Source: Paenibacillus kyungheensis (GTDB lineage Bacteria; Bacillota; Bacilli; Paenibacillales; Paenibacillaceae). From it: 64,000 bases of DNA. The notes beneath the pieces are model-generated. The model saw only the letters and a list, made by a program, of their open reading frames with translations, made no database searches and was not told the origin of the DNA. Position 1 is the first letter of the stretch. The number at the start of each line of letters is the position of its first letter. The position numbers and the translations under genes are program-made. Positions 1,610 to 12,878 of the stretch are shown piece after piece. The stretch spans positions 1,712,001 to 1,776,000 of the forward strand of contig NZ_CP117416.1 of NCBI RefSeq assembly GCF_028606985.1. The letters are read 5' to 3'.

Positions 1610-1638
1610 TTGACAACTTATCTATACAATGGTAAAGT
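1610..1638 (+). promoter_or_regulatory. Likely promoter of the mannose operon
   Basis: TTGACA (1610-1615) and TAAAGT (1633-1638) are separated by 17 bases. The leader to the first gene start at 1830 is about 190 bases and AT rich; I recognise no riboswitch in it. Confidence 0.5.
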
Positions 1639-1829: not shown

Positions 1830-3011
1830 ATGAATGAAGAGACAACAAAACGCAATATTGTATTTTTGGGAACAAGTCTGCCAAGAGAATGCGGGTTGGC
1901 TACGTTCTCGCAAGATATGCTTGATGAAATTAAAAAAATAAATGACTTTAATCCACCGCATATTATGGCGGTTAATAATGATAAATCTTATGAATACGGC
2001 AGTCAGGTAATGGGAGAAATTAATCAATTTGAACGGGCAGATTACTTGCGAGCGGCTAATGATTTGAATCAATCCAATACAGATGTACTGGTTATTCAAC
2101 ATGAGTTCGGTATTTACGGCGGTGAAAGTGGAGAATATGTTGTCGAACTTGCAGCACAGTTAACGATACCTTTTATAGTTATTTTCCATACTGTTCTATC
2201 TGAACCTAGTGATAAACAGCGTCAGATTATGAAACAACTTGCTGATCTTAGTTATAAAGTAGTAACAATGGTAGAGAATAAAGTACAGGACTTAATCGAA
2301 GTGTATAATATTCCTGCTGAAAAAATAAAAATGTATCATCATGGTGTTCCTTTTGTTGACACAGGTAGTCGTACAGAATTAAAAGAGCGTTATGGATATA
2401 GCGATCGCCAAGTTTTATCTACATTTGGATTTTTGAGTCCAGGTAAAGGTATCGAATATGCTATTCAAGCGATGAGCGGTGTAGTCAAAACGCATCCAGA
2501 AGCACTTTATATTATCTGGGGCAAAACGCATCCTGTGGTTAAGCAACAAGTAGGTGAAGTATATCGTCAGAAGCTAACTGATTTGGTATCTGAACTTGGA
2601 CTTGAAAATAATGTTGCGTTCGTCGATCGACTGTTAACACAAGAAGAAGTGGTTCAGTCGCTAGTATTGTCTGATGTGTATTTGACTCCTTATTTAGGCA
2701 AAGATCAAGCAGTTAGTGGCACGTTAGCTTATGGCATAGGGTATGGAAGAGTTATTATTTCGACTCCTTACCGTTATGCAATAGAAATGTTAGCAGACGG
2801 AAGAGGATTGCTGGCAGAATTTAACGACTCTGCTTCTTTGGAAACGCATATTTTGAATATATTAGATCATCCAGCACTTAAAGCAGAAATGGAAGAAAAA
2901 ACGATGGCTTTAGGAAAAACAATGATGTGGAGCGAAGTAGCGAAGTCTTATGCTCAGTTGTTTCGTGAAGTCATGTCAAGCAGTTACGGATTAAAAGGGA
3001 GTGCAGTTTAA
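1830..3011 (+). CDS. GT4-like glycosyltransferase of the mannose operon
   Basis: A 393-residue GT-B fold glycosyltransferase. The start at 1830 is preceded by AAAAGGGAG; an upstream in-frame ATG at 1629 lies inside the promoter. The N-terminal Rossmann half has FLGTSLPRECGLATFSQDML and QHEFGIYGG. The C-terminal nucleotide-sugar half has GFLSPGKGIEYAI and, where GT4 enzymes usually carry E-x7-E, a variant reading GKDQAVSGTLAYGIGYGR. That variant recurs in a subfamily often found beside, or fused to, a barrel protein like the next gene. The gene for GDP-mannose synthesis in the same operon suggests GDP-mannose as donor, which is inference. It ends one base before the next start codon. Confidence 0.85.
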   Translation: MNEETTKRNIVFLGTSLPRECGLATFSQDMLDEIKKINDFNPPHIMAVNNDKSYEYGSQVMGEINQFERADYLRAANDLNQSNTDVLVIQHEFGIYGGESGEYVVELAAQLTIPFIVIFHTVLSEPSDKQRQIMKQLADLSYKVVTMVENKVQDLIEVYNIPAEKIKMYHHGVPFVDTGSRTELKERYGYSDRQVLSTFGFLSPGKGIEYAIQAMSGVVKTHPEALYIIWGKTHPVVKQQVGEVYRQKLTDLVSELGLENNVAFVDRLLTQEEVVQSLVLSDVYLTPYLGKDQAVSGTLAYGIGYGRVIISTPYRYAIEMLADGRGLLAEFNDSASLETHILNILDHPALKAEMEEKTMALGKTMMWSEVAKSYAQLFREVMSSSYGLKGSAV

Positions 3012-3012
3012 A

Positions 3013-4122
3013 ATGGAAAATATCATCGATTCAACGCCAACATCTACTCTATCAGCACACTATTTACGACGCTTAACCGATGATACAGGTATTTTTCAAC
3101 ATACCAAATTTGGTATTCCTGACCGTTCAAAAGGATATACTTCTGATGATAATGCAAGAGCATTAATAGCAGCGGTATTACTATACAAAACCAAACAAGA
3201 TCAAGCGTCTCTGGATCTTGTTCATACGTATCTTGCGTTTATCTATCATGCTCAAAATGAAAATGGTAGTTTCCGTAACTTTATGGATTATAATCGTACA
3301 TTTATAGAAAAAACAGGTTCAGAAGATTGTCAGGGCAGATGTCTATGGGCACTGGGTGTAACAATTGCTGAACCTTCGATTCCAGATAATTTGCAGAATA
3401 CTTGTAAATTTATGATTAATCGTGCGCTTCCCTTTTTGGAAAATATCCGCGCGCCAAGAGCGATTGGTTATGCGCTAATTGGTTTGACGACGATGTTAGA
3501 AACACCGGATGCACTAACCTATACATTCCCATTTGCTACAGGGGAAAGATCAGGCGCCTCTTTCTTACCACGTGCACGAATTGAAGCATTGATTCAGAAT
3601 ATGGGTATTCGTTTGCATAATCTATATCAAGGTCATGCCAGTGCAGATTGGCATTGGTTTGAAGATAAAGTGACTTATGGTAATGCTATGTTACCGTGGG
3701 CTTTGTTCAAAGCATCTCAATTTTCGAATACTGCTGCTTTTCAGCAGACAGCGCGAGAAAGCTTAGATTTTCTAGCAGAATTAACATTTACAGATGAAGG
3801 TTATTTCAAGCCGATTGGTAGTCATGGTTGGTTACAGCGTGGGAAGCCTGCTGCGCCGTATGATGAGCAACCGATTGAAGCTTCGGAAATGTTAATGGCT
3901 TGTTATGAAGCGTACAAAGTGCTTGGCGTGCAAAAATATCATGATCAAGCTTTGCTATGTTATCAGTGGTTCCACGGTCGCAATTCACGCAATGAATCGT
4001 TGATCGATCGTCAAACAGGTGGATGTTATGATGGAATTCATGCGGTAGGCTTAAATCTCAATCAAGGGTCAGAGAATATCGTCTCTTACTGCATGGCTCA
4101 TGCGGTGATGGGTAATGAATAG
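3013..4122 (+). CDS. Alpha/alpha-barrel-like partner protein of the GT4 enzyme
   Basis: A 369-residue protein with no signal peptide or membrane segment. The start at 3013 follows AAAGGGAG; a GTG at 3001 overlaps that site. Motifs such as LTDDTGIFQH, DRSKGYTSDDNARAL, QNENGSFRNF and GSEDCQGRCLWALG resemble (alpha/alpha)6-barrel glycan-active proteins and recur in proteins paired with GT4 enzymes of the preceding type. The repeated aromatic and acidic residues (DDNARA, SEDCQGR, ADWHWFEDKVTYGNA) suggest a sugar-binding or catalytic cleft. It starts right after the glycosyltransferase stop and overlaps manC by 8 bases, so translation is coupled. The reaction is not known to me; glycan hydrolysis or acceptor binding are possible. 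Confidence 0.7.
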   Translation: MENIIDSTPTSTLSAHYLRRLTDDTGIFQHTKFGIPDRSKGYTSDDNARALIAAVLLYKTKQDQASLDLVHTYLAFIYHAQNENGSFRNFMDYNRTFIEKTGSEDCQGRCLWALGVTIAEPSIPDNLQNTCKFMINRALPFLENIRAPRAIGYALIGLTTMLETPDALTYTFPFATGERSGASFLPRARIEALIQNMGIRLHNLYQGHASADWHWFEDKVTYGNAMLPWALFKASQFSNTAAFQQTARESLDFLAELTFTDEGYFKPIGSHGWLQRGKPAAPYDEQPIEASEMLMACYEAYKVLGVQKYHDQALLCYQWFHGRNSRNESLIDRQTGGCYDGIHAVGLNLNQGSENIVSYCMAHAVMGNE

Positions 4123-5194
4123 ATTTGCAACGATTCTGGCAGGTGGCGGAGGTACAAGATTCTGGCCTCTATCCCGTCAAGATCTTCCCAAACAATTATT
4201 AAATATCAGTGGTAATGATATTATGTTAAATGATACGATTCAGCGCTTTGATGGAGTCATCCCGATGGAGAATACGATTATTGTGACTCATCGTTCTCAA
4301 GCTGTTTTACTGGAAAGTATTATGCATACCAGTGTGCAAGCTTCTAATATTCTTGTCGAACCTGTATCCAAAAATACAGCCGCCAGTATTTTGCTAGCGG
4401 CTCTCTATATCGAAAAAAATCATGGGGATTCGTTAATGATTGTTTTTCCTTCCGATCATCATATTACTCAGGAAGAAAAATTTCGTGCTAAATTAGAAGA
4501 AGCATGCCAAATTGCTATGGAAACTGATAAAATTGTGACTATAGGAATTAAGCCTACTTTTGCAGCAACAGGCTATGGTTATATTTCATGTAAAAGTGAA
4601 CCTATGATGAGTGTACCTTGTCCTGTATATGAAGTGGCTGAATTTGTAGAAAAGCCTACGTTTGTCAAAGCGAAGTCTTATCTGGAAACGGGTCATTATC
4701 TATGGAATAGTGGTATGTTTATCTGGAAAACGTCTACGATTATTGATAATTTTAAGCGTTTTCTGCCGAGATTGTACAAAACGATGGTTCCTTTGATTGC
4801 TTATCTAGGAACGGATCAAGAAGAAGAAATGATCAATCAGATTTATCCGCTATTGCAAAACATTTCGATCGATTACGGTATTCTAGAACGTTGTGATGAA
4901 GTGGTTGTGCTTGAAGGCGATTTTGGTTGGAATGATATCGGAAGCTGGGATGCGTTGGGAGCTATTTTCCCACCGGATGAAGAAGGCAATATTGTCAAAG
5001 CCAATTATGTAGGTATTGATACGCGTAATTCGATTATTTATGGAGAAAAGCGATTGATTACTACGATAGGAATTGACCATTTAATTATTGCTGATACGGA
5101 AGATGCGTTGTTGATCTGTGCCAAAGATCGTGCGCAAGATATCAAAGATATGGTAATCATGCTAAAAGAAAAAGGACTTCAGGAATATACCTGA
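4115..5194 (+). CDS. manC: Mannose-1-phosphate guanylyltransferase
   Basis: A 359-residue nucleotidyltransferase making GDP-mannose from mannose 1-phosphate and GTP. The N-terminal signature ILAGGGGTRFWPLSR and PKQLL bind the nucleotide. Further motifs are FPSDHH, FVEKP and WNSGMF in the sugar-binding region, and SIDYGILER followed by GDFGWNDIGSWDAL, all typical of ManC/RfbM. The C-terminal isomerase domain of bifunctional enzymes is absent, so mannose-6-phosphate isomerase and phosphomannomutase must come from elsewhere. It overlaps the upstream gene by 8 bases and lies 20 bases from the GH130-like gene. Confidence 0.9.
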   Translation: MNRFATILAGGGGTRFWPLSRQDLPKQLLNISGNDIMLNDTIQRFDGVIPMENTIIVTHRSQAVLLESIMHTSVQASNILVEPVSKNTAASILLAALYIEKNHGDSLMIVFPSDHHITQEEKFRAKLEEACQIAMETDKIVTIGIKPTFAATGYGYISCKSEPMMSVPCPVYEVAEFVEKPTFVKAKSYLETGHYLWNSGMFIWKTSTIIDNFKRFLPRLYKTMVPLIAYLGTDQEEEMINQIYPLLQNISIDYGILERCDEVVVLEGDFGWNDIGSWDALGAIFPPDEEGNIVKANYVGIDTRNSIIYGEKRLITTIGIDHLIIADTEDALLICAKDRAQDIKDMVIMLKEKGLQEYT

Positions 5195-5214
5195 GAAAGG
5201 TTGCCTCTTACCTC

Positions 5215-6177
5215 ATGATGAAATTAGAATGGGATATCAAAACGTGCCGGGAACTACTGCTAGAATATACACCTGCTAAGGAAAAAGGAACCAAGATTCA
5301 CTTTACAGGAGTAGATAATCTGGATGTGTATAATATTACAGCTCCGTTTTGGAATGAAGGCGAATTGTATATTGCTGGACGTGTCGAAGCAAGAAATTCC
5401 GAAGATTCTGAAGTAATCTTTTTTACTCGTAATGGAGATGTCTGGGAACCGAAAGAAGATTTAACCCCGTTTCAATTACAAGATCCATTTATTACAAGGC
5501 TGGATAATGAATTGATTTTTGGTGGTGTTGAAATTTATCGTAATCAAGAACCAGATCACAAAATCATCGGCTGGCGTACTTTATTGTATCGTGGCAAAAC
5601 GATTCGTGATTTTGAATATGCAGTCAGTGGACCCTGGAGTATGAAAGATCTTCGTCTCAATGAAATGGCTGATGGTAATATAGCTGTTTTTTCTAGACCT
5701 TTTGGTGTAGAAGGAGCGGTAGCTTTGATTGGATTTGGTATTTTTGAATCGTTTCAAAATTTGTCAGAGTCTAATATTATTAGCGCTCCTGTATTTAAAG
5801 ATCAATTTGATAAAAATGAATGGGGCGGCGCTAACGAAATTCATTTATTGAAAAATGGCTTATTAGGTGTATTGGGGCATATAGCGTATCGAGACGAACA
5901 GAAAATGCTTCATTATCATGCGATGTCTTTTGTGGTGAATCCATGGACACGTGAGAAATCTGCAATGAAAATTATAGCAGTTCGAAGTGATTTTCCTGAA
6001 GGACCTGCTAAGCGTCCTGATCTGGTAGATGTTATTTTCAGTGGCGGAATGACTCGTGAAGCGAATGATCGTGCGATCTTGTACGTAGGTGCTAGCGATG
6101 TAGAATCGTATTGTCTGGATATTCCTGATCCATTTACAGAGTACGAGCAGATTGTTCTGGCAGAAGCGATGTCATAA
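5215..6177 (+). CDS. GH130-like beta-propeller protein, DUF1861 family (candidate beta-mannoside phosphorylase/transferase)
   Basis: A 320-residue protein with the five-bladed propeller landmarks of GH130-type mannoside phosphorylases: YNITAPFWNEGELYIAGRVE, LQDPFITRLDNELIFGG, WGGANEIHLLKNGLLGVLGH and a C-terminal ILYVGASD. I place it in DUF1861. As I recall, the Leishmania mannogen transferase/phosphorylases (CAZy GT108) belong to this group and make or break beta-1,2-mannose polymers with mannose 1-phosphate or GDP-mannose. Together with manC and a glycosyltransferase this points to synthesis or recycling of a cytosolic mannose polymer. No signal peptide is present. Start 5215 has a distant GAAAGG; 5218 is an alternative. 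Fold-level call is good; substrate is inferred. Confidence 0.7.
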   Translation: MMKLEWDIKTCRELLLEYTPAKEKGTKIHFTGVDNLDVYNITAPFWNEGELYIAGRVEARNSEDSEVIFFTRNGDVWEPKEDLTPFQLQDPFITRLDNELIFGGVEIYRNQEPDHKIIGWRTLLYRGKTIRDFEYAVSGPWSMKDLRLNEMADGNIAVFSRPFGVEGAVALIGFGIFESFQNLSESNIISAPVFKDQFDKNEWGGANEIHLLKNGLLGVLGHIAYRDEQKMLHYHAMSFVVNPWTREKSAMKIIAVRSDFPEGPAKRPDLVDVIFSGGMTREANDRAILYVGASDVESYCLDIPDPFTEYEQIVLAEAMS

Positions 6178-6223
6178 GAGTCTATCAAAAACCTATTTTA
6201 GATAGAAGTACGATACAAATAAA

Positions 6224-6266
6224 GAAGGCTATCTCCTGTCAGTAATCTGATAAGGGATAGCCTTTT
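6224..6266. terminator. Intrinsic terminator after the mannose operon
   Basis: AAGGCTATC and GATAGCCTT arms pair around a 20-base loop and are followed by TTTTATTT. An AAAGAA run on the other side makes it weakly bidirectional. Confidence 0.75.
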
Positions 6267-6522: not shown

Positions 6523-6544
6523 AGTTGGAGTTGGAGGAATGAAC

Positions 6545-7291
6545 ATGCTGACAGAAGAACGCTACCATTTAATTCTACAGCGCTTACAGGAACGAAGCAT
6601 AGTTAAATTACAAGAATTAGTTGATATTTTAGGTGCTTCTGAATCAACGATTCGACGTGATCTTATCGATCTTGAAAGTCGCCAACTGCTAAAGCGTATA
6701 CATGGGGGAGCAGCCCTAGTTCATCAAAAAAGCCAAGAACCTGGTATGGACGAAAAAACATTCACAAACGTTCAACAAAAAGATGTAATCGCTAAATTAG
6801 CAGCACAAGAGCTTTTGGATGGAGAATGTATCTATCTAGATGCAGGTACCACTACGCTTGCCATGATTCCTTATATTGAAGCCAAAGACATTACAGTCGT
6901 GACCAATGGATTGTCTCATGTAGAAGCGCTCGTTCATCAACAGATCCGCAGTTATTTGTTGGGAGGGATGATGAAAATGCATACCAAAGCCGTTATTGGA
7001 AGTATAGCTCTCCAAAATATGGACAACTTCCGCTTTGATAAATGTTTTCTCGGAGCAAACGGTATTGATGCAGAGATGGGATATACGACTCCAGACCCTG
7101 AAGAAGCTTTAATTAAAAGACGTGCACATGAATTGTCCAGTCAGACGTATATATTAGCTGACTCTAGTAAGATCGGTGAGATTACGTTTGCCAAATTGTT
7201 TAGTCTTAATGAAGCCGTATTGATCACAGAAGCGATGCCAGAACAATGGCAACGTTCGATTGCTCAAAAAACTAAAATAATCGAGGGATAA
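6545..7291 (+). CDS. fruR: DeoR-family repressor of the fructose operon
   Basis: A 248-residue DeoR-family regulator. The N-terminal winged helix has VKLQELVDILGASESTIRRDLIDLE, and the C-terminal sugar-phosphate sensor domain has the DAGTTT, VTNGLSH, LLGG, FLGANGID, TTPDPEEA and ADSSKIG motifs. The start at 6545 is chosen over 6539 because GGAGG (6533-6537) is 7 bases from it. In the family the effector for fructose operons is fructose 1-phosphate. It ends 2 bases before fruK and is the first gene of the operon, so it is probably autoregulated through the direct repeats upstream. Confidence 0.9.
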   Translation: MLTEERYHLILQRLQERSIVKLQELVDILGASESTIRRDLIDLESRQLLKRIHGGAALVHQKSQEPGMDEKTFTNVQQKDVIAKLAAQELLDGECIYLDAGTTTLAMIPYIEAKDITVVTNGLSHVEALVHQQIRSYLLGGMMKMHTKAVIGSIALQNMDNFRFDKCFLGANGIDAEMGYTTPDPEEALIKRRAHELSSQTYILADSSKIGEITFAKLFSLNEAVLITEAMPEQWQRSIAQKTKIIEG

Positions 7292-7293
7292 CC

Positions 7294-8205
7294 ATGATAT
7301 ATACAATAACGCTTAATCCTTCCATAGACTATATCGTGGAAGTGGACGAATTGAAGTTAGGTGACTTGAACCGCATGAAGCGTGACTTAAAGCTTCCAGG
7401 TGGTAAAGGCATTAACGTATCTCGTATTTTGAATCGTTTGGATGCACCGAATACAGCACTTGGATTTGTCGGTGGATTTTCCGGTCAATATATAGAAGAT
7501 AAACTTCATGCTGAACACATTTCGACTGACTTTGTTCATGTGGCAGATGATACACGCATCAATGTAAAGCTCAAGCATGGAGAAGAAACAGAGATCAATG
7601 GTCAAGGGCCGAATATCAGTACGGAAGAAGCTGATGCGCTGGTAGCTAAATTATCTCAATTGCACAAAGAAGACGTGGTTGTTCTTTCAGGAAGTGTACC
7701 CCCGTCTTTGGGAGCGAATTTCTATGATCGTCTGATTGAAGTATGTAAGCAGACAGGAGCAGAATTTGTAATTGATACGACAGGGCCAGCATTGCTCAAA
7801 GCACTTGCAGATCGTCCATTATTAGTGAAGCCTAATCATCATGAATTAGCAGAACTGTTCAGCGTTGTGATTGCAAGTCGTGAAGATATTATTACGTACG
7901 GTCGCAAATTACTAGAACTTGGTGCTCAACATGTATTGATCTCGATGGCTGGTGACGGCGCATTGTTGATTACGCCGGAAGAAGTCTATCATGCTAATGT
8001 ACCTAAAGGAACGGTCAAAAACTCTGTCGGAGCAGGCGATTCTATGATTGCTGGATTTACCGGTACACTGGTATCGACTCATGATCCTCTTGAAGCTTTC
8101 CGTACAGGTGTTGCTTCTGGTAGTGCAACTGCTTTTTCAGACGATCTAGCGACACGTGAAAAAATTGAAGAATTACGTCCACAAGTTACTATTGTTACAT
8201 TATAG
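7294..8205 (+). CDS. fruK: 1-phosphofructokinase
   Basis: A 303-residue PfkB/ribokinase-fold kinase that converts fructose 1-phosphate to fructose 1,6-bisphosphate with ATP. It has the N-terminal ITLNPSIDY, the GGKGINVSRIL sugar-binding motif, VVLSGSVPPSLG, the conserved KPNHHEL and the GAGDSM anion-hole and catalytic aspartate motif. The length and motif order match FruK. It lies between fruR and fruA, the standard arrangement, and uses the product of the PTS transporter encoded next. Confidence 0.95.
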   Translation: MIYTITLNPSIDYIVEVDELKLGDLNRMKRDLKLPGGKGINVSRILNRLDAPNTALGFVGGFSGQYIEDKLHAEHISTDFVHVADDTRINVKLKHGEETEINGQGPNISTEEADALVAKLSQLHKEDVVVLSGSVPPSLGANFYDRLIEVCKQTGAEFVIDTTGPALLKALADRPLLVKPNHHELAELFSVVIASREDIITYGRKLLELGAQHVLISMAGDGALLITPEEVYHANVPKGTVKNSVGAGDSMIAGFTGTLVSTHDPLEAFRTGVASGSATAFSDDLATREKIEELRPQVTIVTL

Positions 8206-8242
8206 AAGCTATTGATTGAATCCAATAAAGGAGTGTAACCTA

Positions 8243-10201
8243 ATGAGAATTACAGATCTAATGATCAAAGAAACGATGATCATGGACTTACAGGCAACAA
8301 CCAAAGAAGCAGCGATTGATGAATTGATCGCTAGTCTTGCAACCAGTGGAAGAATCAATGACAAAGTACTATTTAAAGAAAAGATTTTGAAACGTGAAAG
8401 CGAATCAAGTACGGGTATCGGTGGCGGTATTGCGATGCCTCATGCCAAAACAACAGCGGTAAACGAGCCTACAGTTGTTTTTGCTAAAAGTACAAGAGGG
8501 GTAGATTACGAGTCTCTTGATGGTGAACCTGCTCATTTGTTCTTTATGATTGCAGCACCAGAAGGAGCAGCAAATACACATTTACGTACATTAGCTGCGC
8601 TCTCTAAGCTACTGATTGATAGCGATTTCATCGAAAAATTGATGAATACAACCAGTCCTGACGAAGTATCCGCACTTTTCGATACACAACAAGCTGAAAA
8701 AGAAGCGGCGGAAAAAGCAAAAGCTGAAGCCAAAGCAGCAAGAGAACAAGCCAAACAACAAGAAAATGCAACAGTGCAACAAGCAGAAGCTACGCTGGAA
8801 GGCAAAGACAACAAACCATTCGTGGTTGCTGTTACCGCTTGTCCTACAGGGATTGCTCATACCTTTATGGCAGAAGACGCATTGATCAAAAAAGCGCAAG
8901 AAATGGGCGTAGAGATCAGAGTCGAAACAAACGGTTCCGAGGGTGCTCAGACTGTACTAACTGACGATGAAATTCGTCGTGCAAGTGGTGTTATTGTAGC
9001 CGCTGACAAAAATGTAGAAATGGCGCGTTTTGATGGTAAGCCTGTTTTACAAAGACCGGTTAGTGATGGTATTCGCAAATCCGAAGAGTTGATTCGCAAA
9101 GCGATGAATGGAGACGCTCCGATCTATCATAGTGCTGGAGGAAAATCGTCTTCTGAAGCTTCATCTTCAAATGAAAAAACAAAAATAGGTAGTAAAATTT
9201 ATAAAGACTTAATGAATGGTATCTCGCATATGTTGCCGTTCGTTGTCGGTGGTGGTATTTTACTTGCGATCTCGTTCTTAATCGAACAGACAGCAGGCGA
9301 GAATAGCCAAATCTTCAAGCTATTGCAAACGATCGGTGGCGGAGAAGGCGCATTCTTCTTCCTGATTCCAATCCTAGCTGGTTTTATCGCAATGAGTATT
9401 GGGGATCGTCCTGCATTAATGCCTGGTATGGTCGGCGGTCTAATGGCAGCGAACTCTAACGCTGGTTTCCTCGGCGGTTTAGCAGCTGGTTTCTTGGCAG
9501 GTTATGTGATCCTTGCTCTACGTAAGTTACTTGCTGGATTACCAAAAACATTAGATGGTCTCAAACCGATTTTGTTATATCCTGTACTTGGTCTGTTAAT
9601 TACCGGTACGATTGCGTACTATATCTTCGATCCAATCTTTGGTGGTATTAATACGTGGTTGGTTAACGTCTTGAATAACCTTGGAACAGGAAATGCTGTT
9701 ATTCTAGGTCTGATCTTAGGCGGAATGATGTCAATCGATATGGGTGGGCCATTTAACAAAGCCGCTTATGCGTTTGCGATTGGTGTATTTACATCAAGTG
9801 GTAATGTAAATGGTACAATGATGGCGGCTGTTATGGCAGGCGGTATGGTTCCTCCACTTGCGATTGCTTTGGCTACTACATTCTTCAAAAACAAATTTAC
9901 AGAGCAAGAACGTAAGTCTGGTCTAACTAACTATGTACTTGGATTGTCCTTTATAACCGAAGGTGCGATTCCTTTTGCAGCAGCTGATCCATTACGTATT
10001 CTAACGTCTTGTATTATTGGTTCTGCAGTTGCAGGGGGCTTGACACAATTCTGGGGAATTAATATTCCTGCACCTCATGGTGGGATTTTCGTAGCAGCTC
10101 TTGCTAATCATGCTTTACTATTCTTATTAGCTGTTGCCATTGGCGCTGTTATTTCTGGTTTGATTTTAGGAATATGGAAAAAAGTACTTGTAGCTAAATA
10201 A
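8243..10201 (+). CDS. fruA: PTS fructose transporter, IIABC fusion
   Basis: A 652-residue fused permease that imports fructose as fructose 1-phosphate. The start at 8243 follows AAAGGAG; a TTG at 8216 lies before that site. Domain order is IIA (about 1-150, phospho-acceptor His67 in AMPHAKT), an Ala/Lys/Glu/Gln-rich linker (about 150-190), IIB (about 192-295, Cys200 in TACPTGIAHTFMAEDAL) and membrane domain IIC (about 320-650, with GGPFNKAA, FITEGAIPFAAADP and PAPHGG). Third gene of the operon, followed by a strong terminator. Confidence 0.95.
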   Translation: MRITDLMIKETMIMDLQATTKEAAIDELIASLATSGRINDKVLFKEKILKRESESSTGIGGGIAMPHAKTTAVNEPTVVFAKSTRGVDYESLDGEPAHLFFMIAAPEGAANTHLRTLAALSKLLIDSDFIEKLMNTTSPDEVSALFDTQQAEKEAAEKAKAEAKAAREQAKQQENATVQQAEATLEGKDNKPFVVAVTACPTGIAHTFMAEDALIKKAQEMGVEIRVETNGSEGAQTVLTDDEIRRASGVIVAADKNVEMARFDGKPVLQRPVSDGIRKSEELIRKAMNGDAPIYHSAGGKSSSEASSSNEKTKIGSKIYKDLMNGISHMLPFVVGGGILLAISFLIEQTAGENSQIFKLLQTIGGGEGAFFFLIPILAGFIAMSIGDRPALMPGMVGGLMAANSNAGFLGGLAAGFLAGYVILALRKLLAGLPKTLDGLKPILLYPVLGLLITGTIAYYIFDPIFGGINTWLVNVLNNLGTGNAVILGLILGGMMSIDMGGPFNKAAYAFAIGVFTSSGNVNGTMMAAVMAGGMVPPLAIALATTFFKNKFTEQERKSGLTNYVLGLSFITEGAIPFAAADPLRILTSCIIGSAVAGGLTQFWGINIPAPHGGIFVAALANHALLFLLAVAIGAVISGLILGIWKKVLVAK

Positions 10202-10216
10202 TAAAAGATAATACTC

Positions 10217-10281
10217 AAAACCTCTGTGTGAAGATCAAGCTGATTGGATATAGCTAATGTTCTTCTCACAGAGGTTTTTTT
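10217..10281 (+). terminator. Intrinsic terminator after fruA
   Basis: AAACCTCTGTG and CACAGAGGTTT pair, extended by GAAG/CTTC, and are followed by seven T. Confidence 0.85.
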
Positions 10282-10465
10282 GGTATCGTTGTGCAAAAGT
10301 AACATATTTAAATGTCGAATTTTGTATTGTATGACCATTTCATAAAATAAATAAAGAAAATGAGCGAATTCATGCAAATAAATGTAAATATTAGGCAAGA
10401 TAATGACGATATATAATCTATAACTCCTAGTATATTAAATAGTTCAAAAGAATTATAAAAATCTA
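10282..10465. other. AT-rich stretch upstream of the second PTS locus
   Basis: I see no gene or RNA here. The gap from fruA to the next start (10202-10625) otherwise holds the fruA terminator, a promoter with an overlapping cre-like site, and three CGATCA motifs at 10524-10569 that could be repressor sites. Confidence 0.4.
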
Positions 10466-10494
10466 TTTACAGTCTATGAAAACGCTGTTATAAT
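10466..10494 (+). promoter_or_regulatory. Promoter of the second PTS locus with an overlapping cre-like site
   Basis: TTTACA (10466-10471) and TATAAT (10489-10494) are 17 bases apart. ATGAAAACGCTGTTA (10476-10490) fits the CcpA cre consensus WTGNAANCGNWNNCW at 14 of 15 positions and overlaps the spacer and -10, where CcpA binding would repress. Confidence 0.65.
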
Positions 10495-10625
10495 CAAAAT
10501 CAATCAAGAGTAATCACAAACGATCACGAAAATTGTCGAAAAAAATCAATAAACGATCATCATCGATCATGAGCACATGTTCAACGTCATTATTAGCTAA
10601 CATATGTAGACAGGTGGAATGTCCC

Positions 10626-11390
10626 ATGCTTTTTGAAGAAGAACGAAAGCATAAAATGGTTCAATATTTACAAGAGAATCACCGGGCATCTGTTCAAGAA
10701 CTAGGGGAAGCTTTTGGAGTATCAGATTCAACGGTTCGTCGGGATCTCAAAGAGTTAGAAGATGCAAGGCGATTGAAAAGGACACACGGGGGAGCCGTAT
10801 CACTGCAAAGTGTTAATTTTGAACCCAATATGGTGGACAAAGAAGATTCTTTTCGAGAAGAGAAAGAGCGCATTGCGAAACGAGCGGTAGAGATGATCCA
10901 TCAAGGTGATACGATCTTGCTTGACTCGGGAACGACAACTCTTCCATTAGCAAAAGAACTAAAGCATATGTCCGGTATTCGAGTAATCACGAACTCGGTC
11001 ATTGTTCTTAGCGAACTTCGAGATTGTCGGAATATTGAATTGTCTATTATTGGCGGATTGTTAAGGCCAGACACACTAGCATTTGTTGGGCCGATAGCAG
11101 AACGTTCACTGGATATGGTACGTGTAGACAAAGCTTTTATTGCAACAAACGGTCTGGATCTCAAAGAAGGTGTAACCACCCCTAATCTGACAGAAGCTGC
11201 TATTAAGCGCAAAATGATTGATATTGCTAAGCAAGTTATTTTATTAGCAGATCATAGCAAGATTGGTAATATCGCTTATGCCAAATTTGCAGACGTATCA
11301 GAGATTGACCATTGTATTATGGATGATGGAGTACCGCTTCATATTATTCATCAACTGAAAAAGCTAGGTATAGGTGTGACGATCGCTTAA
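10626..11390 (+). CDS. DeoR-family transcriptional regulator of the second PTS locus
   Basis: A 254-residue DeoR-family repressor. The N-terminal HTH contains SVQELGEAFGVSDSTVRRDLKELE, then the C-terminal sensor has LDSGTTTLPLAKEL, VITNSVIV, IIGG, FIATNGLD, TTPNLTEAAIK and ADHSKIGN. The start at 10626 follows AGGTGG by 9 bases; the frame is open back to 10533, but that extension lacks a ribosome binding site and reads unlike the family. It is a paralogue of FruR and precedes the IIBC gene by about 100 bases. The effector is unknown, probably a hexose phosphate produced by the adjacent PTS. Confidence 0.85.
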   Translation: MLFEEERKHKMVQYLQENHRASVQELGEAFGVSDSTVRRDLKELEDARRLKRTHGGAVSLQSVNFEPNMVDKEDSFREEKERIAKRAVEMIHQGDTILLDSGTTTLPLAKELKHMSGIRVITNSVIVLSELRDCRNIELSIIGGLLRPDTLAFVGPIAERSLDMVRVDKAFIATNGLDLKEGVTTPNLTEAAIKRKMIDIAKQVILLADHSKIGNIAYAKFADVSEIDHCIMDDGVPLHIIHQLKKLGIGVTIA

Positions 11391-11432
11391 CTACACGTTG
11401 GGATCAGAAATACATGATACATCATGATGAAT

Positions 11433-11447
11433 TTGAAAGCGTTTTAA
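11433..11447 (+). promoter_or_regulatory. cre-like site upstream of the IIBC gene
   Basis: TTGAAAGCGTTTTAA matches the CcpA cre consensus at 14 of 15 positions. It lies 49 bases before the IIBC start, so it could add catabolite control inside the locus. Confidence 0.5.
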
Positions 11448-11495
11448 TAAAGGCGATAAAGGTTAGACCATTACTCATTATAAGGGGATATTACC

Positions 11496-12878
11496 ATGAA
11501 AAAATTATTGGCTGTTACCGCTTGTCCAACCGGTATTGCTCACACGTACATGGCTGCTGAGTCATTGCAAAAAGCTGCAGATCAAAAAGGTGTACCGATC
11601 AAAGTAGAAACTCGTGGTGCAGTTGGAGTCGAGAATGGTCTAACCGCTCAAGAAATCGCTGAAGCACATGCTATTATTATCGCTGCTGATACAGATGTAG
11701 ATGAAGATCGCTTTGCAGGCAAACCTGTTATTCGTGTAGCAGTTGCACAAGGGATCAAAGTTCCAGGAGAATTAATCGATCGTGCATTAGCTAAAGAAGC
11801 TTCCAGTGGTCTTGCTGCTTCACCAACAGCTACACCTGAAGAAAATGCAGGTCGTAAGCCTAATATGTTCTACAAACATTTAATGAATGGTGTATCCAAT
11901 ATGTTACCGCTTGTTATTGCAGGTGGTCTGATTATCGCATTCTCATTCTTATTCGCTTTCACTAAAGGCGGAGTCGATCAAGTAGAGGGTTCGTTTGGAG
12001 CTGCTTTATCCACAATTGGTGGCGCTTCAATGGGACTGATGGTTATCGTATTATCTGGATTCATTTCATTCTCTATCGCTGGTAAACCCGGACTTGCACC
12101 TGGTTTGGTAGGCGGTGTACTTGCTAAAGATATGGGTGCTGGATTTATCGGCGGTATTATCGCAGGTTTTGTAGCTGGTTATATTGCACATTACTTGATC
12201 AAAACAATCAAAATGCCTAAAAACTTTGAAGGACTTAAACCGATTCTAATCGTTCCTGTATTGTCTGTACTTGCTATTGGTCTATTGATGGTCTATGTTA
12301 TCGGTCAACCGATTGAATGGTTGTTGACAGGTTTGACAGCTTGGTTGACGAATATGGGTGCAGGAAATGCTATTATTCTAGGAGCTATTCTTGGTGCAAT
12401 GATGGCACTCGATATGGGGGGCCCTTTCAACAAAACCGCTTATACTTTTGCAGTAGGATTGCTAGGTGCTTCTCTTTATACGCCAATGGCGGCTGTTATG
12501 GCAGCAGGTATGACTCCACCACTTGGTATTTGGTTAGCAACTGTTATTGCTAAAAATCGCTTTACCAAAGAAGAGCGTGAAGCTGGTAAAGTGGCTTCGA
12601 TTCTAGGGCTATCGTTTATTACCGAAGGTGCTATTCCGTTCGGTGCGGCTGATCCGATTCGTGTTATTCCTTCCTTTATGGTAGGTTCGGCTGTAGCTGG
12701 TGCATTATCAATGTACTTCGGTGCAGGTCTACATGCTCCTCATGGTGGTGTATTCGTTCTCTTTATCCCGAATGCAATCGATCATTTGCCACAGTATGTA
12801 TTGTCTATTGTTATTGGTACTGTCGTTACAGCGTTGATGGTCTTGTTGCTTAAACGCAAAGCACCTGCTAAATTATAA
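11496..12878 (+). CDS. PTS fructose-type IIBC component
   Basis: A 460-residue PTS protein. IIB occupies about residues 1-105 with the phosphocysteine at Cys10 (VTACPTGIAHTYMAAESL). Domain IIC spans about 125-455 with many hydrophobic segments and the fructose-type motifs DMGGPFNKTAYTFA, FITEGAIPFGAADP and HAPHGGVFV. Unlike FruA it lacks a fused IIA, which is encoded separately at 13008. The start follows AAGGGG. The sugar cannot be read from sequence; the fructose-mannitol family also handles other ketoses, and no dedicated kinase gene is adjacent. Confidence 0.9.
   Translation: MKKLLAVTACPTGIAHTYMAAESLQKAADQKGVPIKVETRGAVGVENGLTAQEIAEAHAIIIAADTDVDEDRFAGKPVIRVAVAQGIKVPGELIDRALAKEASSGLAASPTATPEENAGRKPNMFYKHLMNGVSNMLPLVIAGGLIIAFSFLFAFTKGGVDQVEGSFGAALSTIGGASMGLMVIVLSGFISFSIAGKPGLAPGLVGGVLAKDMGAGFIGGIIAGFVAGYIAHYLIKTIKMPKNFEGLKPILIVPVLSVLAIGLLMVYVIGQPIEWLLTGLTAWLTNMGAGNAIILGAILGAMMALDMGGPFNKTAYTFAVGLLGASLYTPMAAVMAAGMTPPLGIWLATVIAKNRFTKEEREAGKVASILGLSFITEGAIPFGAADPIRVIPSFMVGSAVAGALSMYFGAGLHAPHGGVFVLFIPNAIDHLPQYVLSIVIGTVVTALMVLLLKRKAPAKL

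Follow-up and report, generated by a model that had tools for sequence, protein, structure and literature searches.

A four-gene operon of Paenibacillus kyungheensis that joins a GT4-type glycosyltransferase and an (alpha/alpha)-barrel partner to ManC and a DUF1861 protein of the GT108 clan

The 64,000-nucleotide stretch of the Paenibacillus kyungheensis genome considered here (contig NZ_CP117416.1, positions 1,712,001 to 1,776,000; hereinafter, the window) comes from a genome that consists of one contig of 5.26 Mb and contains, at 1830-6177, four genes on the plus strand whose products may act together on a mannose glycoside. The first gene (1830..3011) encodes a GT4-type glycosyltransferase of 393 residues with a predicted GT-B fold and a non-canonical EX7E motif; the second (3001..4122, GTG start) encodes a protein of 373 residues that is predicted to form an alpha/alpha-barrel and is referred to below as the barrel; the third (4115..5194) a ManC-type mannose-1-phosphate guanylyltransferase of 359 residues; and the fourth (5215..6177) a DUF1861 (PF08950) protein of 320 residues, a predicted beta-1,2-mannoside phosphorylase. 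The reading frame of the GT4 gene opens at 1629, and its start can be placed at 1830 because the five orthologues within the genus are 392-393 residues long and the ATG at this position follows AAGGGAG. The GT4 and barrel genes overlap by 11 bases and the barrel and ManC genes by 8 bases (4115-4122), whereas ManC and the DUF1861 gene are separated by 20 bases; from this spacing and the intrinsic terminator hairpin 3' of the operon (6223..6266, plus strand; -26.4 kcal/mol, z -6.9), we infer a single transcript. A first-pass annotation, made from the letters of the sequence, had recognised this tightly ordered set and the type of the third enzyme, and it gave the right number for the junction of the barrel and ManC genes, where, however, the 8 bases are an overlap and not a gap.

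Judged by its sequence, the fourth protein belongs to the GT108 clan. It matches PF08950 at E = 8.6e-106 (353.8 bits against a cut-off of 28), and its best solved relatives include the Leishmania enzyme MPT-4 (6q50, 7.2e-47), 2b4w (7e-45), MPT-1 (6e-44) and MPT-2 (2e-42). The catalytic aspartate is kept, D90 (codon 5482..5484, plus strand) being aligned with the MPT-2 residue that is mutated in 6q4z (D94N). All of the 55 bacterial DUF1861 proteins retained from 58 matches, after 3 short ones had been dropped, carry this residue as well as K144, R147, R161 and H222. R161 (codon 5695..5697, plus strand) and P162 are also present in MPT-4 and 2b4w; in MPT-1 and MPT-2, a His occupies the position of the Arg. 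PMC8950772 treats GT108 as a family of dual transferase/phosphorylases, classes MPT-3, -4, -6 and -7 as enzymes of mannose 1-phosphate and describes 6q50 as a phosphate complex of MPT-4.

The relation to GH130 is remote. PF08950 was the only Pfam family matched at E up to 0.001, PF04041 (GH130) being absent, and hhalign against 11 GH130 proteins gives a distant alignment (246 columns, probability 26.7%, E 7e-4) in which D90 shares a column with the aspartate of the GH130 EDPR motif and K144-D145 with the KD of KDA. Hence, the first-pass placement of this protein in the GH130/GT108 clan stands, with the GT108 part borne out by the profile search and the GH130 part reduced to distant kinship. 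Lys199 of BT3780 is reported to mark beta-1,2 enzymes, including Teth514_1788 and 1789, and to be absent from beta-1,4 enzymes (PMC4599007). Because, among the GH130 proteins compared here, those of the E-D-P-R type have the KD lysine while the sole Y-D-P-R protein (L041) lacks it, this lysine would be the equivalent of Lys199, and the lysine aligned with K144 (codon 5644..5646, plus strand) is, accordingly, probably the beta-1,2 specificity lysine. Since both gene context and residues point in this direction, phosphorolysis of beta-1,2-mannosides would supply ManC with mannose 1-phosphate. That the DUF1861 protein acts on beta-mannosides can be held with considerable confidence; that it works mainly as a phosphorylase seems probable, and that its substrate is the cell's own product, not an imported one, is only mildly favoured.

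The ManC protein combines the NTP_transferase domain PF00483 (4.8e-40) with the beta-helix domain PF22640 (3.9e-21), the composition of a guanylyltransferase. Its match to the bifunctional GMP_PMI model TIGR01479 lies below the cut-off (333.6 bits versus 372.95) and stops at model position 353 of 467, leaving no isomerase half. Within the genus, ManC is part of the set in only two of the six genomes that carry GT4, barrel and DUF1861; its loss from the others was considered as a test of GDP-mannose dependence and set aside as uninformative because TIGR01479 has a match in all 16 genus genomes, none of them above the cut-off. NF052502 likewise matches 16 of 16 genus genomes, along with 14 of 14 control genomes.

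The GT4 protein matches the Glycos_transf_1 domain (PF00534, 3e-11) and PF13692 in Pfam, and no NCBIfam model above its cut-off. Its AlphaFold2 model (mean pLDDT 89.3) adopts a predicted GT-B fold, with sucrose-phosphate synthase, HepE, MshA and PimA as structural matches (Z 34-36), and since several families match in this range, the sugar donor is not readable from the fold.

The barrel belongs to no NCBIfam family and has no Pfam match even at E up to 10. Its predicted (alpha/alpha)-barrel (mean pLDDT 90.9) has as the nearest solved fold 7tem (Z 37.7, root-mean-square deviation, rmsd, 2.4, 332 aligned; next match, 29.5), which is also the best solved sequence match (9.7e-4); 7tem is YPO2471 of Yersinia pestis, titled a putative exported protein, and a literature search by that name found no paper. 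Further fold matches include cellobiose 2-epimerases (Z about 28-29.5), GH76 (Z 23.5-27.3) and MmpH (Z 25.6). Among 57 barrel sequences, D49, D50, D288, E293 and E358 are invariant, E108, D109 and E221 nearly so, and H34 is the only invariant histidine; these acids and H34 suggest a glycoside-acting site. Enzymes of the N-acylglucosamine/cellobiose 2-epimerase superfamily employ two catalytic histidines. The fold likeness to this superfamily (Z about 24-29.5) raises the idea that the barrel is an enzyme of the cellobiose 2-epimerase type whose product goes to a mannosyl-glucose phosphorylase; this idea is not favoured because the 57 sequences have one invariant histidine in common and because the GH130 proteins of equivalent gene sets are of the E-D-P-R, beta-1,2-like type.

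The coherence of the gene set can be judged from its distribution. Barrel loci were collected by a search of genome contigs with the barrel, which yielded at least 583 confirmed relatives; the top 80 were kept, so that the sample is weighted towards close relatives. A neighbourhood is the fetched stretch, up to 8 kb on each side and shorter at contig ends, in which genes were called longest reading frame first, with some neighbours missed or mis-started. A GT4 gene adjoins the barrel gene in 80 of 80 named loci, and in a Ruminococcaceae metagenome-assembled genome (L088:6840-9044) the two form one 734-residue reading frame, a natural fusion. The phosphorylase near the barrel is DUF1861 in 34 loci and GH130 in 31; no locus has both, and 15 have neither, a count that may be too high since several loci end at contig edges (for example, L086, L094 and L095). 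Elsewhere in their genomes, 12 of these 15 have GH130 and/or DUF1861. A ManC-profile gene lies near in 31 of the 34 DUF1861 loci, 10 of the 31 GH130 loci and 6 of the 15 others. In all eight Clostridia, Negativicutes or Bacteroidales loci tried with Pfam, the gene before GT4 encodes a hexapeptide-type nucleotidyltransferase; the respective sequence cluster covers 26 loci, with at least one member (L057) GlgC-like by eye. Some Clostridia and Negativicutes add genes of the phosphoglucomutase/phosphomannomutase type (clustering in 8 loci) and of the mannose-6-phosphate isomerase type (in 5 loci), Pfam agreeing in 3 of 3 cases tried for each. Three Clostridia loci (L092, L095, L100) have two upstream genes in common, one of them encoding what looks, by eye, like a PlsY-like membrane protein.

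Six of the 16 genomes of the genus carry the combination of GT4, barrel and DUF1861, and in 6 of 6 the DUF1861 gene is adjacent to the barrel gene; of the other ten, eight lack DUF1861 altogether and the remaining two possess a more distant one only, weak barrel matches (E 2e-4 to 5.5e-4) in four of these ten not being counted. Across the family, all 40 genomes whose barrel match is strong (E no higher than 1e-150, a limit set once the list had been seen) contain DUF1861, as compared with 147 of 295 over the cut-off overall. In the tree of the 55 DUF1861 proteins, the barrel-adjacent ones fall into separate clades. In that of the window (15 rows, support 97/96), the DUF1861 gene lies downstream of the barrel gene and shares its strand; in another (21 rows, support 100/98), it lies upstream and is read in the opposite direction, and most of the DUF1861 proteins without a barrel group with this latter clade (96/91). 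Gene order in the 34 named loci, the window excluded, is divided accordingly into 11 of the former kind and 23 of the latter. The label 'beside barrel' has to change at least 3 times on this tree versus 14.1 times in shuffles, none of 500 of which is as low, although the rows are not all independent because one genome is reached twice (L025/L045, L027/L057, L029/L054); the three changes may represent one gain and two losses. Thus, chance clustering of the operon genes can be rejected because the set is conserved across genomes, loci and the tree, and an uncharacterised (alpha/alpha)-barrel family, without a Pfam or NCBIfam match here, is marked as the constant partner of GT4.

DUF1861 genes also have another setting. 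A sugar permease gene is found within 4 kb in only 8 of the 80 barrel loci versus 11 of 14 DUF1861 loci without a barrel, which indicates two contexts for DUF1861, one of uptake and one with the barrel. In six loci that lack the barrel (L030, L032, L035, L038, L039 and L041), DUF1861 adjoins GH130 and a sugar permease lies within 4 kb in each case, so that the two phosphorylase-clan genes do occur together there, unlike in the barrel loci.

As for the surroundings of the operon, the best promoter-like site before it is TTGACA-17-TAAAGT, with TG ahead of the second hexamer (1610..1638, plus strand; consensus scan), a call that is only suggestive because 25 such sites were seen versus 19.5 (sd 4.5) expected. 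The upstream neighbour is a divergent gene for ribosomal protein L25 (Ctc-like, 827-1468); L25 homologues cluster near the GT4-barrel set in 34 of the 80 loci. Downstream lies a DeoR regulator gene identified with Pfam, which opens a region (6539-12878) that continues, by eye, with reading frames resembling 1-phosphofructokinase and a fructose phosphotransferase system and then with a second DeoR-like gene and a second reading frame of the fructose phosphotransferase type; Pfam was applied to the first DeoR only.

Taken together, these data lead us to favour, tentatively and at slightly less than an even chance, the view that the GT4-barrel pair, ManC and the GT108-type DUF1861 protein constitute a dedicated module in the cytosol by which a mannose glycoside is produced and recycled. 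In such a module, ManC would convert mannose 1-phosphate into GDP-mannose, from which, as the presumed donor, the GT4 enzyme, jointly with the barrel as its constant partner, would build or process a mannoside. The DUF1861 protein, as an inverting enzyme of the GT108 type, would carry out reversible phosphorolysis of terminal beta-mannosyl links, most likely beta-1,2, and the alpha-mannose 1-phosphate released would return to ManC without expenditure of ATP, with all of these steps presumably confined to the cytosol. The beta links themselves might be made by the DUF1861 protein, either by running its reaction backwards or by drawing on GDP-mannose, as is reported for Leishmania.

A number of observations weigh against this proposal, the first of them stereochemical. 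GT4 enzymes are retaining and produce alpha links, whereas GT108 and GH130 enzymes are inverting and act on beta links. Because the GT4 enzyme is retaining, its product from GDP-mannose is expected to be an alpha-mannoside, which should be no substrate for an inverting beta-mannoside phosphorylase. The ways out are that DUF1861 makes the beta links, that the substrate is imported, or that this GT4 belongs to an unusual branch, an option left open by the state of its donor site. The usual donor motif of GT4 glycosyltransferases is EX7E. In the window protein, the corresponding C-terminal region reads QAVSGTLAY, with each position kept in at least 90% of 87 relatives, and the motif glutamates (positions located by eye, not on a structure) are replaced by Q293, invariant in 35 sequences, and Y301, kept in at least 90% of the 87; in PimA, these glutamates are Glu274 and Glu282 (PMC9883506). 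With the EX7E glutamates missing, the donor itself is unsure.

A second group of such observations concerns the constancy of the set. The counts overstate how far DUF1861 and GH130 exclude each other because the split largely tracks phylogeny (Paenibacillaceae versus Clostridia and Negativicutes). Three of the 15 checked genomes (of unstated completeness) with GT4-barrel loci devoid of both genes have neither DUF1861 nor GH130 anywhere, and among 20 further Paenibacillaceae stretches, most of them picked for a missing or unknown adjacency, DUF1861 was found in 3 (L159, L160, L173) and GH130 in none. Four of these 20 (L155-L158) have a strong barrel, GT4 and ManC, with DUF1861 on another contig or not adjoining. 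In the same sample, a second, more distant barrel type has GT4 but no DUF1861 or GH130 beside it in 9 of 10 loci (L161-L168, L174), where the window-type ManC was not found either, and a third, longer type (413-420 residues; L169-L172, genus g24), which has a GT4 partner of its own, lacks an adjoining DUF1861 or GH130 in 4 of 4 loci. It follows that the GT4-barrel pair can stand alone and that the phosphorylase is a frequent but not a constant companion. Finally, four of the six set-bearing genus genomes lack ManC in the set, although a second GMP/PMI-like gene exists elsewhere, and the literature searched contained no assayed enzyme of this DUF1861 subtype; among the titles listed, the open-access literature on GT108, mannogen and DUF1861 included no study of a bacterial GT108 protein.

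The strongest alternative, although we regard it as unlikely overall, is GDP-mannose salvage, whereby imported beta-1,2-mannosides would be phosphorolysed by DUF1861, the mannose 1-phosphate would be converted by ManC to GDP-mannose, and the GT4-barrel pair would make an unrelated, alpha-mannosylated product. This is the published model for the GH130 version of the gene set (PMC4264767); it is free of the stereochemical conflict, accommodates GT4-barrel pairs without an adjoining phosphorylase gene and agrees with the uptake-type DUF1861 genes of relatives. Against it, a sugar permease is near in just 8 of the 80 barrel loci, and the host genome has a single DUF1861 gene, no GH130 and no transporter among the four genes; furthermore, several loci add de novo mannose-phosphate genes, for which salvage would have no use. 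Compared with salvage, the cytosolic module remains the preferred reading. Its generalisation, namely, that inside the cells of many Paenibacillaceae, Clostridia and Negativicutes a beta-1,2-mannan, a bacterial mannogen, is built by a hitherto unrecognised GT4-barrel pair and turned over by a GT108 or a GH130 phosphorylase, members of two remotely related propeller families that replace each other in one pathway, is in our view doubtful.

It is improbable that DUF1861 is chiefly a synthase that makes beta-1,2-mannan from the GDP-mannose provided by ManC, a reaction of which the Leishmania MPT enzymes are capable, with a primer from GT4 and trimming by the barrel: the position of ManC directly upstream of DUF1861, with the 20-base gap, and the dual transferase/phosphorylase nature ascribed to GT108 enzymes (PMC8950772) are compatible with such a role, but R161 is of the MPT-4 type, MPT-1 and MPT-2 having His at this site, and the GH130 proteins of the same gene set match phosphorylases acting with mannose 1-phosphate (PMC4264767). 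The least probable option is a role of the operon in an exopolysaccharide, a wall polymer or a glycolipid, which DUF1861 would trim or recycle, since, although GT4 and ManC are common in clusters of this kind, the four genes are flanked by a divergent gene on one side and by a terminator on the other, Pfam found no flippase, polymerase or membrane gene among them, and other GMP/PMI-like genes are available elsewhere in the host genome.

With respect to the first-pass annotation, the neighbourhood survey confirms that the four genes are lastingly linked, with GT4 beside the barrel in every named locus and a clade pattern in the DUF1861 tree, and the suggested phosphorolysis of beta-mannosides to mannose 1-phosphate for ManC gains from gene context and residues, as a predicted activity. 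The claims that the GT4 enzyme polymerises the chain that is later phosphorolysed, which runs into the conflict between a retaining GT4 and an inverting beta-phosphorylase, and that the four genes form a closed cytosolic cycle of storage or stress protection are not supported. In more general terms, bacterial DUF1861 gains a testable function, and the shared gene set ties it to the GH130 beta-1,2-mannoside phosphorylases. Should the product be an internal mannan, many spore-forming and anaerobic bacteria would possess a reserve polymer of the Leishmania type, and the salvage model proposed for Thermoanaerobacter in 2014 would have to be revised.

Three known systems invite comparison. The Leishmania MPT enzymes (GT108; 6q4w, 6q4x-z, 6q50) are of the same family as the window protein, which keeps their catalytic Asp and has the MPT-4-type Arg; unlike them, the window protein is bacterial, its gene shares an operon with those of GT4, the barrel and ManC, and any polymer linked to it is hypothetical. 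The mycobacterial methylmannose polysaccharide cluster shows the same pairing of a GDP-mannose-dependent GT-B transferase, ManT, with a barrel-fold hydrolase, MmpH (PMC9883506). The folds are similar (ManT, 7qsg, Z 32.1, rmsd 2.9, 332 aligned; MmpH, 7qsj, Z 25.6, rmsd 3.0, 290 aligned), but this likeness is not specific, several other families matching as well or better; moreover, the window operon has no methyltransferase, and the four-gene ManT/MmpH cluster, in the available part of its description, names no beta-phosphorylase (PMC9883506).

The closest counterpart is found in Thermoanaerobacter, where Teth514_1788 and 1789 were assayed as beta-1,2-mannoside phosphorylases and the cluster Teth514_1785-1796 of strain X-514 was read as one of GDP-mannose salvage (PMC4264767). 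Thus, the statement of the first-pass annotation that such a system had not been described in this group holds for the literature searched, with the qualification that a very similar architecture with GH130 had been published in 2014. As far as it is described there, the cluster brings together GT4, a hypothetical protein, a guanylyltransferase and the beta-1,2-mannoside phosphorylases, and it has in common with the window operon a phosphorylase-clan gene, a guanylyltransferase and GT4; it differs in that its phosphorylases are GH130 and not DUF1861 and in that it includes an ABC transporter and GH5, whereas the window operon lacks a transporter. A locus of the same genus (L098, Thermoanaerobacter sp. 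A7A) has the order GH130, GH130, nucleotidyltransferase, GT4, barrel, and from this barrel beside GT4 it can be surmised that the hypothetical protein, Teth514_1785, is probably the barrel. Both L098 GH130 proteins exceed the NCBIfam cut-off for beta-1,2-mannobiose phosphorylase (545 and 543 bits versus 450), the first matching 7fip at 675 bits and next 9fj8, a 1,2-beta-oligomannan phosphorylase; the nucleotidyltransferase, of the hexapeptide type, has as its best NCBIfam match man1P_GTase_Rv, a mannose-1-phosphate guanylyltransferase, at 278.6 bits, below the cut-off of 440. By gene content, then, DUF1861 takes the place of the GH130 beta-1,2-mannoside phosphorylases in the Paenibacillaceae set, and the window operon represents a version of the kind published for Thermoanaerobacter, GT108 being substituted for GH130.

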